Assembly (NCBI RefSeq): GCF_963675165.1
Contig: NC_087390.1
Coordinates: 1,963,501 to 2,027,500 of the forward strand
Direction of reading: 5' to 3'
Source: Halichondria panicea
Lineage: Eukaryota; Porifera; Demospongiae; Suberitida; Halichondriidae
DNA length: 64,000 bases
Position 1 is the first letter of the stretch. Each line of letters opens with the position of its first letter. This document shows positions 41,803-46,879 of the stretch, piece after piece. Both the position numbers and the translations under genes were made by a program. Under the pieces are notes generated by a model, which saw nothing but the letters and a program-made list of their open reading frames with translations, was not told the origin of the DNA and made no database searches.

Positions 41803-41999
41803 GTAATTATTGGTGGTGGTCTATAATTATGATCAGTATACCGTACGGGTAGAAAATTTCGAGGGTTTAAAATTTCGTGCAATTCAATATTTTGTCTTAT
41901 TTGGAAAATTTCGCGGGTAGTAAATTTCGTGGAAGTTAAATTAAGAGGGTGTGGCATTTATCTCGCGTGAGATACATGCAGTAGACAGCAGTCGAGTAC

Positions 42000-42995
42000 A
42001 TGTACATCATCATGGATACATTCTCCATAGCATCGATGACAAGAGGCTACCATGTCTATCAGGGTACATGGAATGCGTTAGTAGGGGAAGTTTTGGAGTG
42101 CAAGAGAGAAAGCAGCAATAGCCATGATCCCTTCGCGGTGGCAGTCATGAGAAATAGCACTGGTGGAACTGCTGTTGTTGTAGGGCATGTACCGAGACGT
42201 TTATCTGCTCTCTGTTCTCTATTTCTAAGAAGAAGTGGCTCAACAATAACTTGTAGAATTACTGGAAGCAGAAGATATTCTACAGATCTTCCCCAAGGGG
42301 GCCTCGAAATACCCTCTATGCTCACTTTTTCTGGACAGCGGCAAAATATTAATAAGGTAAAAGCCCTCATTGCTGAGGTACAGGTAACTATTGGTAAGAA
42401 GGATGCAACAGGTGATATTGATGTGGATATGCCTGCAAAACGGCCAGCCCTATGCAGTGATGTTTGGACAAACCTCGAAAATATTACTTTGTATATGGAA
42501 GACAAACAGAAGATCCTTGGAAATGATCTATTAAATGACGATTATATTAACACAGCACAGAATTTGTTAAAGAGACAGTTCCCTTCACTGACCGGCCTTG
42601 AATCGACTTTAACAGTTGGACGCACTGTATACGATAATTGGGTATGCAACTATCTTCAATTTCTCCACTGCCGTGGTAATCACTGGATTACTGTCAGCAC
42701 GTTAGGATGTGCTAAAGGTGAAATTAACATTTTTGATTCAATATTCTCTTCACTCGATAAAGTTTCTGAAGATATTCTGAGCAACATTTTCAAAAACAAT
42801 AGCCTTTGTTTCAAGAACGCTGATGTTCACAAACAGAAAGGAGTCAAGGACTGTGGTCTTTTTGCCATAGCTTTTGCTACGCATCTTGCTAATGGTACTA
42901 GTCCCACCTGTGTTTCATTCGATCAAAGTAGTTTACGAACTCATCTTGTATCATGCATTAGCGAAAATGTTATCAATTTATTTCCTATGCTGTAA
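42000..42995 (+). CDS. HIRAN-like domain plus Ulp1/C48-type cysteine protease, transposon-borne
   Basis: A 331-residue intact single-exon ORF inside the pogo-type transposon. Residues about 10-125 resemble a HIRAN domain (LVGEVLECKRESSNSHDPFA, VVVGHVPRRLSALC, LTFSG). The C-terminal half has a Ulp1 catalytic layout: His in CRGNHWITVS, Asp in INIFDSIF, Gln and Cys in KQKGVKDCGLFAIAF. The protease family cleaves SUMO/NEDD8-like modifiers. In mobile elements such genes are found in several superfamilies, and their role is not settled. Start choice: ATG at 42000, with a second in-frame ATG at 42012. It is convergent with the transposase remnant. Confidence 0.75.
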   Translation: MYIIMDTFSIASMTRGYHVYQGTWNALVGEVLECKRESSNSHDPFAVAVMRNSTGGTAVVVGHVPRRLSALCSLFLRRSGSTITCRITGSRRYSTDLPQGGLEIPSMLTFSGQRQNINKVKALIAEVQVTIGKKDATGDIDVDMPAKRPALCSDVWTNLENITLYMEDKQKILGNDLLNDDYINTAQNLLKRQFPSLTGLESTLTVGRTVYDNWVCNYLQFLHCRGNHWITVSTLGCAKGEINIFDSIFSSLDKVSEDILSNIFKNNSLCFKNADVHKQKGVKDCGLFAIAFATHLANGTSPTCVSFDQSSLRTHLVSCISENVINLFPML

Positions 42996-43176
42996 AATTG
43001 TTATACCATTCTATCGCAGAACATGATAATAAACATAAAAACATCCTAAAACTGTTTTAAAGAATTTACAATTCCAGAATTTCTAAATCCATTGATGATG
43101 ATTTCAGGATGAGATTCGAAGTAATTAAACATATCAATTGCCCACTGTGCTGTCAAGGGTTTCATCACACTTAACC

Positions 43177-44500
43177 TTAAATCAACAGGTTCCTCGGTTC
43201 CACTCTTAGTTGCTTGCAAACGATATCACCATACCACTCCTGAAATTTCTTCCTCAGAAAGTCCTTAGCAGGCTTATTAACGCTTAAATTAAGTGGTTGA
43301 AGCCTGTCAGTACAGTTAGCTGGAATGACCACATACAAAATACAATTTTCTTCTAACAATCTACGAACATTGTCAATCAAATGCCCCTTGAATACATCAA
43401 ACAATACCAGGGCAGGATGATCAGACGCAAGGTTCAATTTAGAACGTGTTTCAGTCACATAAGGAACTAATCTTTGTTATATAATCAATCATCGTATCAC
43501 CATTAGACCAGTGATTGGCTGTGCAAGTTATGTGCCAATTTTCAGGAAAAGAAATCTTCGAAAGACACCGGGTTGTGGTGCCTTGGTATATCAGCTGTAG
43601 TGGTAGAAACCTTCCAGATAAAGAGCATCCAAACACAGCGGTGCTTTGCCTTTTATCATCGATAGCAACAATTTCGACTCTTTTCGTTCCCCGCTTTTCC
43701 ATGGTCCATGAAGATGACGGAACAATTTTCATTGCAGTTTGATCCCAATTGATAATTAATGCATCTGGGATGTCTTCCATTTTTACTACACACTTCACAT
43801 CATTGCAAAAGTCGTCTTTCACCGTTTCAAAATCGCTGACTAGCACTTTTGATTTTGAATTTGCACGCCTCTTACTGAAACCCATTCTTCAAAGAATACT
43901 TTTTGCCCACTCTTTGCCAAGTATAATATCACCACCAAATTCATTCATCGATGATCTGTTGTGTTTTAAGAGCAGTCCTCTTCCAATTCCAATAATAACA
44001 CTTGTGCCAATGGGTGTACCACGTCTACGTAGACTTACAATAATGTCTTGCAGCTTCTTGTCCAGAGTGCTGCCCAGAAGAGGTGGCCTACCACGTTTCT
44101 TAGTTGCTAATGACTTGACAACCATTTTTTCTGGTCGAGCTTGTTCGATCAGCTTCTTAAGCTGCTTTTCATATAGATTTTTCCAATCCCGAACACTACT
44201 TTCCTTAAGATTTTTCTTGTTAAAAAATCTGACAGCTGCAGCAATCCCATTTTCACTGGCATGTCTTCCAATCACTAATTTGTCTTCCTCAGAATTTCTT
44301 GTGTATGGTCCACGTTTTTTTTTCTCTTGTGCTGCTTTCACTTGCTTGCTTACTTCAACAAGAGTTGAGGCTGGTAGATCTATAGACTTAGATGACAGAC
44401 CAAAAGGATTATCTGCAACAGCATGAAAGTGAACAGAGACATGTTTAGCCTCGATTCCAAGCCGCTGAGAAAGACGGCCTGGTATACACTGTTTACGCAT
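43177..44500 (-). pseudogene. DDE (pogo/CENP-B-like) transposase, inactivated
   Basis: Read on -, the N-terminal part (from 44445 down) has a basic, AT-hook-like KKRGRPPLLG and a helix-turn-helix region. It stops at an in-frame TGA (43889-43891), continues in the same frame (MGFSKRRANS, INWDQTAMK with the first Asp), and shifts frame near 43455 (LVLFDVFKGH with the second Asp). At the third catalytic position the family normally has LQPLD; here it is LQPLN. So there is one nonsense mutation, one frameshift and a catalytic Asp to Asn change. The upstream end is cut by a Mutator-like insertion at 44446; bases past that point are not transposase. Confidence 0.8.
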
Positions 44501-45542
44501 GCGCCAGAATTACCCAGAATCTGGGTAATCGTAAATTGCAGTATATTTATCAGTATTCTTATTCCGCATTAGTTTGTAAAACATTGATATCCGTTTCATT
44601 TATAATGATGTCATTGAAAAAAGAAATCTAGTCCAAGTTGTGTAATGGCTGCAACCTTCTCTTCTGCTCTCGCGTACGCGTTATCCTGTGTTGGAAAACC
44701 AGGTCTAGTCTTGAAAGACAAGCAGCTGGAGGCGTTGAAGTGTCTGTACGCTGGTGTTTATGTGGGTACCGTACCGACCGGCTATGGCAAGTCCCAGAGC
44801 AAGTCCATCTGCTTTCCAAACACTCCCTTTCTTGGATTGATGTGAAGCTTGACAGGACCAGTGCACCTCTCTCTGAAAGAAGTGTTGTGATAGTGATTTC
44901 TCCTCTTGTTTCTCTGAGTGAAGCCATCTTCAAAGTGTTGGTGTGTCTGTTCGACGTTCAGTGCCATTCTCTCTGGAAGGAAGTATTGTTGTGACATTTG
45001 CCGAAAATTGGTCACAGAGTAAGTACGTGGTATCTGATCCGAGAACTGTGTGGCCTGAATGTGTTTACAATCCGAGGGACTTGTGTGTATCCGATCCGAG
45101 TGACTTGTTGCTTGAGTGTGTATCCGGACTTGTTGCTTGAGTGTGTATTAATGGATAGTGCTTTCAATGGTAAATCTATTGTGTAAATCAATAAGTAGTC
45201 CTCACATTATGTTACGTCACAGCCACTGTACTTATCCACATTTATTTTTACCCACAGGTTTAACTAATTTCTTATGAGATTAACTTGTCGCCTGAGTGTG
45301 TATCCGATCCGAGCCTCAAGTTAATGAATAAATCTACAGAGCTGATATTTTACTTAGCTGTCTCTGTCTATAGTATATACAGAGAGGTAGCCTCTCCTTT
45401 TTCTTTTTTCTGTTCTTTATATAAGATAAAATACTGTTTTAACGTTCAATGAGATAAAATACGGTAAATAATAAATTAATTGTCCACCCACGCGCCAACA
45501 GTAAATACCAGGCCACTATTCAAGGGGCTGGAGTCGAGGCTA
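44446..45542. mobile_element. Mutator-like element (1097 bp) carrying a RecQ-like fragment
   Basis: It starts TAGCCTCGATTCCAAGCCG and ends GGCTGGAGTCGAGGCTA. AGACATGTT is duplicated (44437-44445 and 45543-45551). It is inserted in the transposase gene of the 4.5-kb transposon. Inside, 44645-45000 carries helicase-like sequence in broken frames. The right part (about 45389-45480) includes TAGCCTCTCCTTTTTC, similar to the arms of the 738-bp element. Confidence 0.88.
44645..44990 (+). pseudogene. RecQ-helicase-like fragment captured in a Mutator-like element
   Basis: Starting at ATG 44645 the frame reads MAATFSSALAYAL, then KDKQLEALKCLYAG and GTVPTGYGKS, a Walker A-like motif of the RecQ type (LPTGYGKS). 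In another frame VVIVISPLVSLSEAI matches the RecQ region after it. Frameshifts and missing exons mean no functional product. Confidence 0.7.
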
Positions 45543-45678
45543 AGACATGTTCTTCACATACGTACGTTGCATTGATACATGTACGTTGATATCATTAATT
45601 AAGCCGCGGCTTCTGTGCGTGTGCGCATGCACATACAAAACCTTCCATGGGTTTAATTTTCGTATTCTGACAGTACCC

Positions 45679-46280
45679 TAGCCTCGATTCCAGGCCGATT
45701 AAAATACGGCCTGGTACTTATTGCATGGTGATAGTGCGCATGCGTTAGTTTATTCACCAAAATCTGGGGAATTCCCTTTTTCTTTCTCTCATCTATTTTC
45801 TATCTTTGTACATCAGCTTAGCTCTCTATTGCGTTGTTCCAGAAGGCTTTCACACTAGTCTGAAGCCAGAAGAGGCTCTCATCTACCTCTATGACGGTTG
45901 TATGGTCAGAATGTCTTACCTTGGATCTGTACAGGCTATGGGAAGTGTATGGTGCCTCAAACTGCTACCATGCGAAGACAACCTGGCTACAGGACCATCC
46001 TAGACGTAGATGAGAGCCTCTTCTGCCTTAAAACTAGTGTTCAAGCCTTCTAGACCAACGCAATAGACGGCATAAGCCACAGCTTCACAGTACTCAGTCA
46101 TAGAAATAAAGTATTACGGAACATATTCTTAGTAAACGGACTAATTTTTCCGGTATAATTTACTAAGGTTTTACGTTCGTAGTACGATTACCCATATTCT
46201 GGGTAATTTGAAGCGCATGCGCACTATCACCCCTGCAATAGGTACCAGGCCGTATTTTAATCGGCCTTGAATCGAGGCTA
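45679..46280. mobile_element. Mutator-like hairpin element (602 bp)
   Basis: It starts TAGCCTCGATTCCAGGCC and ends GGCCTTGAATCGAGGCTA, with ACAGTACCC duplicated (45670-45678 and 46281-46289). The inverted arms reach almost to the centre (GCGTTGTTCCAGAAGGC near 45830 pairs with GCCTTCTAGACCAACGC near 46045). Short ORFs inside are by-products of the palindrome. Confidence 0.92.
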
Positions 46281-46879
46281 ACAGTACCCACGAAAAACGC
46301 GAAATTAAAACCCCACGAAATTTTCTACCCGTACGGTACCCTGGTTAATATATATATATAGATTCTTTTTCTATCCGCTTTTCAGAGATAGATTTCCAAG
46401 TATACTAAAGAGACTCTGGTATTGCTTCCTTCCTTTCTCTGGTTTTGAGTATTGTATTCATTATAGTGCAATCATTGGAGGCTCTTCACAAAAAGGAGGT
46501 AATCACCATTATTTCCTTGATGAGAAAGGATTGCTGGGAAATATTTTTTTTGTGCAATGCTGAAGTTACATTAGTTTGTGCTCAGGCCCCGTACAACATG
46601 CGGAGATTATTTGCTGCTTGTATGGGTTTACTTTTTTTGGCCTCTGCATATGCTGGTGAATATATAAGTGGTGTAATTCACCACAAAAATAATACTATGG
46701 TACTGATCTTGTTTGGAATCAAGGCCGCTATGAGTCTGCTTGGATTCATCTTGTACTGCCTCCTGGCTCGCTGGTATAAGAGGAGAGTTAGAGACGAGGA
46801 CTACAATGCATACAGAGTGGTGGAGGAGGTCTATGATCGATATCTAACACCTCGTAACCTAGATGAGAAGATGACTTGA

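Follow-up and report, generated by a model that had tools for sequence, protein, structure and literature searches.

When a decayed DNA transposon still holds an open gene beside its broken transposase, has that gene outlived the element or was it part of the element all along, and what could it have done there? The question is raised by a locus of the sponge Halichondria panicea, within a stretch of 64,000 nucleotides (contig NC_087390.1 of assembly GCF_963675165.1, positions 1,963,501 to 2,027,500; hereafter the window, in whose numbering coordinates without a contig label are given), where a pogo-type DNA transposon spans 41841..46336, with no strand assigned to it. Searches of the same genome (131 Mb in 39 contigs, labeled C1, C4, C5 and so on) leave very little doubt about the identity of the locus as a decayed, dead copy of a pogo-superfamily element with two genes. 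Gene 1 is a DD35D transposase, and gene 2, convergent to it and joining a HIRAN domain to a Ulp1-type protease domain, belongs to the element's normal kit. Direct support comes from the anatomy of the element, the catalytic residues, the co-occurrence of the parts across the genome, long-term selection, one relative in which both frames are open, and the recent mobility of miniature inverted-repeat transposable elements (MITEs) that share the ends of this relative.

The element is delimited by CCGTACGGG (41841-41849) on one side and by the reverse complement of that 9-mer (46328-46336) on the other, and a TA duplication is assigned to it from the TA beside both ends (41839-41840 and 46337-46338). 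The terminal arms (41834-41877 and 46300-46343) are 86% complementary over 44 nt, with 4422 nt between them, so the TA-flanked inverted termini claimed in the first-pass annotation were borne out to the exact coordinate by the end search together with arm complementarity. A count of the 9-mer CCGTACGGG across the genome was rejected as evidence (187 matches, against 609 for a reversed control); since the 9-mer alone carries no weight, the evidence for an element is its paired long ends and its copies. TA adjoins both ends of the window, C4 and C5 elements, as well as of seven of eight MITEs (in the eighth the left end was not found by exact pattern). The sister copy, C4:5198453-5201173, is 96.35% identical to the window element over 2522 aligned bases. 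It measures 2.7 kb and the C5 relative 3.0 kb; the window element has been enlarged by two later insertions.

Gene 2 of the window copy lies on the + strand at 42012..42995 and encodes 327 aa plus a stop, counted from the ATG common to the window and C4. The frame is open for 331 codons from 42000 to 42995, as the first-pass annotation had stated in describing an intact 331-residue open reading frame (ORF) with HIRAN and SUMO-protease-like domains, but the ATG at 42000 is absent from the C4 and C13 copies and the shared start gives the shorter protein. Both domains exceed their Pfam cut-offs. The HIRAN domain (42051..42275, + strand; residues 18-92 when counted from the ATG at 42000) matches PF08797 at 34.2 bits (cut-off 24.7, E 2.3e-8), and the Ulp1/SENP-type protease domain (residues 222-317; 42663..42950, + strand) matches PF02902, Peptidase_C48, at 23.5 bits (cut-off 20.7, E 5.5e-5), with His228, Asp246, Gln279 and Cys285 all present in a domain of only about 165 residues. 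HIRAN also passes the cut-off in the C1 and C15 relatives (25.7 and 25.5 bits), and PF02902 does so in C5. A profile built from nine HIRANs, each encoded close to a transposase in this genome, gave a weak match to HLTF structures (E 0.008), and one built from ten Ulp1 domains matched SENP1 at E 1.7e-6; four of those ten come from loci with a pogo-like transposase and six have no demonstrated element membership. Across the aligned Ulp1 domains, Cys and His are present in 10/10, and Asp and Gln in 9/10. Whole-protein comparisons were less informative: profile A1 had no match in the PDB, the window protein by itself had one chance-like PDB match (E 0.055), and its structure predicted from the single sequence had a mean predicted local distance difference test score of 33, with no usable fold.

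Facing gene 2 tail-to-tail is a broken pogo-type DDE transposase (DDE_1, DD35D) on the - strand at about 43058..44442, located by tblastn with the open 485-aa relative described below, its start being placed by the alignment. It has a premature stop at 43889-43891, frameshifts near 43467 and near 43205, and Asn in place of the third catalytic Asp; a further 4-bp difference separates window and C4 near 44429. The dying transposase reported earlier is therefore real as regards the stop and the Asp to Asn change, but it carries two frameshifts rather than the single one reported. Polarized by C4, C11 and C13, where these are readable, three of the changes are derived on the window branch, namely the stop, the Asn residue and the frameshift near 43467.

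An open form of the same arrangement was found at C5:640511-643525, which supplies what the first-pass annotation had proposed to look for, a relative in which this ORF accompanies an open transposase. It is flanked by TA, has 45-nt ends (39/45 complementary) and keeps both genes open. Its transposase (485 aa; PF03184, DDE_1, 43.5 bits against a cut-off of 22) has Asp253, Asp369 and Asp405, with 35 residues between D369 and D405, the DD35D spacing, and its HIRAN-Ulp1 ORF encodes 330 aa. Its N-terminus had no Pfam match at E 0.01 among motifs of the CENP-B_N, HTH_Tnp_Tc5, HTH_psq, BrkDBD and HTH_ABP1_N type. The first 112 bp or so of the C5 element recur at 94-98% identity in at least 39 other places (40 scored of 1422 candidates). 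Another 34 matches in the C5-end search are the inverted 39-45 nt. Eight places that were read out are MITEs of about 230 bp, composed of the first 112-113 bp of C5 (96-98%) and its last 89-118 bp (89-93%). Three of the eight, though located at separate loci with different flanks, do not differ over 230 bp, so the C5 system moved recently. Similarly, the left end of the window element is found in at least 38 places besides C4 (40 scored of 91 candidates); four MITEs of the window type, read whole, are 208-217 bp long with both ends present, and two of these lie in mirrored flanks, perhaps from one duplicated insertion. For the first-pass annotation, relatives with these ends that never carry the ORF would have counted against its reading. 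MITEs sharing the ends do lack the HIRAN-Ulp1 ORF, but they lack every ORF, as expected for internally deleted copies, and C5 carries it.

The association of gene 2 with pogo-like transposases extends across the genome. Within 4 kb of 18 of the 38 HIRAN loci there is a pogo-like transposase (73 clusters), whereas 2000 random draws averaged 0.18 and never exceeded 3; this control assumes uniform positions and ignores the clustering of mobile DNA. Fourteen of the 18 pairs are convergent, three divergent and one same-strand; the pair at C3:5469k was found only via the DNA around a transposase match. Two pairs are probably not genuine, namely C3:3557k, where the HIRAN comes from another multi-copy family and the order is divergent, and C15:1702k, whose HIRAN groups with other HIRANs, which leaves 16 of the 18. 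Because multi-copy families with Ulp1 only were largely left out of the locus lists, the number of Ulp1 loci is a minimum; neighboring rows were merged or omitted. Such Ulp1-only ORFs, about 208, 213, 193 and 425 aa long, are probably parts of other mobile elements. The genome also holds a second, near-identical multi-copy HIRAN ORF family (C16:235318, C1:8144726, C1:5202023, C3:3833452, C7:5249999 and C3:3557603); five of its six members have no transposase listed within 4 kb.

In a transposase tree of 28 rows, a nine-row clade (support 100/100) comprises seven HIRAN-Ulp1 loci, C13:3125k with Ulp1 only (HIRAN was not found in the 1 kb upstream) and C2 with HIRAN only. A wider 14-row clade (100/98) adds five rows with HIRAN nearby, C3:3556k among them probably by chance. 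Of the 12 rows in a third clade (99/99), four have a Ulp1 ORF on the same strand, one with a PHD-like stretch, and none has a listed HIRAN within 4 kb. The tree was built without C3_5470, which is too broken, and the fragment loci C11, C13:3136k, C1:13905k and C8:3696k, among others, were not placed. From this distribution, with HIRAN-Ulp1 in one transposase clade, HIRAN alone with others and Ulp1 alone with a third, the two domains appear to behave as modules that were fused in one branch. A single fusion event seems likely but is not proven; the HIRAN-only C2 falls outside the HIRAN-Ulp1 rows in one tree (80/91), and its position among them is not clear-cut in the 28-row tree. The HIRAN tree is weakly resolved. 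A HIRAN-only element at C6:450206-452881 has 25/25 matching ends and an ORF (HIRAN, 42.7 bits) facing its transposase (DDE_1, 134 bits); it is possibly young, and we take it to be Tigger-like from its ends. The HIRAN-bearing C7 relative has an HTH_Tnp_Tc5 match of 33.6 bits. At C1:14029147-14031860, a DDE_1 transposase is followed by a same-strand ORF that joins Ulp1-like and PHD-like stretches, both just under the Pfam cut-offs (19.5 of 20.7 bits and 22.5 of 24).

Has gene 2 been under selection, and if so, in the elements or in the dead window copy? Among three open HIRAN-Ulp1 ORFs (window, C5 and C1:8540k), pairwise comparison in frame gave proportions of synonymous differences (pS) of 0.78-0.84 and of nonsynonymous differences (pN) of 0.40-0.44, a contrast that is missing in the other two frames. 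Identity is 58-59% in HIRAN, 14-22% in the linker and 39-45% in Ulp1. Because synonymous sites are saturated while HIRAN and Ulp1 stay conserved, codon comparison indicates long-term selection on both domains. The same saturation, with domains and catalytic residues conserved, speaks against gene 2 being a functionless passenger acquired by chance, as do its presence at 16-18 loci and in seven of the nine rows of one transposase clade; the passenger account, in whose favor stands the movement of MITEs without gene 2, is strongly disfavored and the least probable of those considered.

Preservation in the window copy itself is another matter. The host might have kept the HIRAN-Ulp1 ORF as a gene while the transposase died, which would agree with an open ORF beside a transposase with three or more lesions. 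On the path between window and C4, the ORF has 11 silent and 12 replacing changes and the transposase 9 and 23, counts that exclude codons before 42012 and seven gap-side codons (42042-42062). The ORF shows a silent excess over neutrality (P 0.008-0.041, by the transition weight assumed) and the transposase no departure, and the ratio of nonsynonymous to synonymous divergence (dN/dS), calculated with the edge codons still in, was 0.39 for the ORF and 0.78 for the transposase. Corresponding ratios are 0.38 and 0.88 for window-C13, 0.53 and 0.88 for C4-C13, and, for window-C11, 0.96 (from a poor alignment of 130 codons) and 1.17. However, the ORF does not differ significantly from the transposase on the window-C4 path (Fisher P 0.16), the window branch alone has 3 silent and 2 replacing changes in the ORF (P 0.08-0.15), and the chance that all 3-4 lesions hit the transposase, judged by length, is 0.20-0.11; moreover, the 96% identical C4 copy has a broken ORF. 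Domestication is accordingly very improbable, polarized substitutions do not support the keeping of the window ORF after transposase death, and its intactness in a dead copy appears compatible with chance. The earlier proposal that this ORF was retained or newly useful was not upheld: since the ORF is a regular part of the element group and neither substitution nor lesion tests set it significantly apart from the transposase, special retention in the window copy need not be invoked.

What gene 2 does in a living element can be approached through HLTF. According to the available parts of one report, the HIRAN domain of HLTF binds 3'-OH ends and is required to act on the 3' end of the Cas9 post-cleavage complex; it is needed for Cas9 removal from cut DNA, and the N90A-N91A change disrupts this (PMC11237066). 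HLTF N91 aligns by eye with Asn40 of the window protein, which is invariant in the four proteins aligned. The transposase would excise the element, exposing 3'-OH ends both on the element and in the broken donor site, and an HLTF-like HIRAN would bind these ends or the complex of transposase and DNA. The SENP-type protease tethered to HIRAN would then strip SUMO, or a modifier like it, from nearby proteins, and deSUMOylation may help release, repair or re-insertion. Stated thus, a DNA-end-targeted deSUMOylase aiding transposition or repair is a tentative proposal that we consider possible rather than probable; two-gene element and mechanism taken together form the best explanation we can offer, in which our confidence falls a little short of even. 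In a broader form, the accessory protein would be modular and occur in several pogo branches, as HIRAN alone, HIRAN-Ulp1 or Ulp1-PHD; HIRAN would cap 3'-OH ends, the protease would strip SUMO from proteins of repair or of the transpososome, and the element itself would thereby steer break processing. This extension is doubtful; if true, it would amount to a transposon-encoded, DNA-end-targeted deSUMOylase.

Several observations weigh against the end-targeted deSUMOylase. HLTF acts through a motor and the window protein has none; the activity, DNA binding and expression of gene 2 are predictions; HLTF N90 aligns by eye with Ser39 of the window protein. HIRAN falls under the Pfam cut-off of 24.7 in C5 (22.1) and C2 (16.8), and the C1 and C15 ORFs gave no C48 match at E 0.01. 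The YopJ acetyltransferase family also matches 6/10 Ulp1 rows (best E 6.2e-5, against 9/10 and 3.5e-8 for C48), and a chemistry other than that of a C48 protease is possible for these predicted domains. The C2, C6, C7 and C9 relatives have HIRAN with no Ulp1 found, and neither HIRAN nor Ulp1 is listed within 4 kb of seven transposase loci matched by the C5 query (C1:13905k, C2:4672k, C2:4677k, C11:2181k, C1:8296k, C1:6186k and C8:2967k). When viral and prokaryote contigs were scanned with alignment A1, 10 and 50 pattern matches, respectively, turned up, and 0 confirmed relatives. Finally, the mobility of MITEs needs only the transposase and says nothing on the need for gene 2.

Two further readings assign the protease a different target, the first of them, anti-silencing, having already been ventured in the first-pass annotation. 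Transposons are subject to SUMO-dependent silencing in animals, and HIRAN might bring the protease to element DNA, where SUMO would be stripped from silencing factors and the element transcribed. The SENP1-like protease profile would suit such a role, as would the pairing of Ulp1 in another pogo-like element with a PHD finger, a domain of the chromatin-reader type (22.5 bits, cut-off 24). However, HIRAN is known for DNA 3' ends and not for chromatin or sequence-specific targeting, and no link to silenced copies was seen here; we regard anti-silencing as unlikely. Alternatively, gene 2 might deSUMOylate or otherwise control its own transposase, tuning its stability or nuclear localization, in keeping with the two genes staying together in one transposase clade. 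The recurrence of HIRAN with distant transposases, including the Tigger-like one, argues instead for a DNA or host target and makes this regulator quite improbable.

How do these elements compare with known systems, as given in the available parts of the papers cited? They resemble DD35D families of the pogo superfamily such as Passer and Fot in TA, DDE_1 and the 35 residues between the last two Asp (PMC7386202, PMC9976928). Fot ends of 40-60 bp are like those found here (44-45 nt), and the published pogo length of 1.2-5.2 kb covers C4 and C5. Pogo elements have one or two ORFs encoding transposases (PMC7386202), whereas the present elements have a second, convergent HIRAN-Ulp1 gene. Passer has a single ORF and ends mostly <30 bp (PMC9976928); C5 agrees with its DD35D spacing (D369 to D405), but with two genes and 44-45 nt ends the elements here depart from that description. 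Ciliate Tec/TBE elements of the Tc1/mariner type likewise carry extra ORFs beside the transposase, one on the other strand, but the extra ORF is a site-specific recombinase, with no HIRAN or protease mentioned in the parts available (PMC7325037); the words HIRAN and protease occur 0 times in PMC7386202 and PMC7325037. Transposon-encoded Ulp1 is found in Ginger1 and Mutator elements, one Ginger1 with PHD, and was proposed to aid repair after transposition; their transposases are unrelated, and the Ginger1 Ulp1 is a C-terminal part of the transposase, whereas here a separate gene encodes it together with HIRAN (PMC2836005). Some oomycete Cryptons also encode a C48 peptidase beside their recombination enzyme, but these are tyrosine recombinase elements, and HIRAN is not mentioned in the parts available (PMC3212892). 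Among host proteins, HLTF/Rad5 shares the HIRAN domain, HLTF being a translocase and ubiquitin ligase without protease (PMC11237066), and the SENP1/Ulp1 SUMO proteases share the catalytic domain and the His-Asp-Gln-Cys set, the element protein differing in its domain of about 165 residues, its element-encoded origin and its N-terminal HIRAN.

The two insertions that lengthen the window copy are both missing from the C4 sister copy and had been overlooked in the first-pass annotation. N1 (44446..45542, 1097 bp, no strand assigned) has ends TAGCCTCGA and TCGAGGCTA and a 9-bp target duplication AGACATGTT, and lies directly upstream of the inferred transposase start; N2 (45679..46280, 602 bp, no strand assigned) has ends of the N1 type and a 9-bp target duplication ACAGTACCC. 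Target duplications of 9 bp are typical of Mutator-like elements. The N1 family is high-copy and young, N1 being 93-99% identical to the other copies scored (40 scored of 750 candidates). N1 is non-autonomous and contains an ORF that opens with ATG (44645-44845) and includes a TGYGKS motif, presumably resembling the start of a RecQ-type helicase; the ORF gave no match in a Pfam scan and is possibly a captured gene fragment. N2 holds a 100-nt inverted repeat (45825-45924 and 45968-46067, 80% complementary).

A HIRAN-Ulp1 pairing in transposons was not found among the papers listed by the literature searches, as judged by title and the start of the abstract, a scope that leaves Repbase and subscription papers outside, where a description is possible; as far as the searched papers show, the two-gene HIRAN-Ulp1 pogo variant is new. 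Its novelty lies in the second gene and in the modular spread over several transposase branches, not in the state of the window copy. Ulp1 proteases are known in unrelated transposons (Ginger1, Mutator and Cryptons), where, in the parts of the sources available, a role in transposition or repair is proposed and not demonstrated. In the present case the protease is fused to HIRAN, a domain known from HLTF to have the 3' DNA end as its ligand, and the element that encodes the fusion is small, with two genes. Since one relative is open and some non-autonomous copies are very recent, the role of SUMO proteases in transposons becomes testable.

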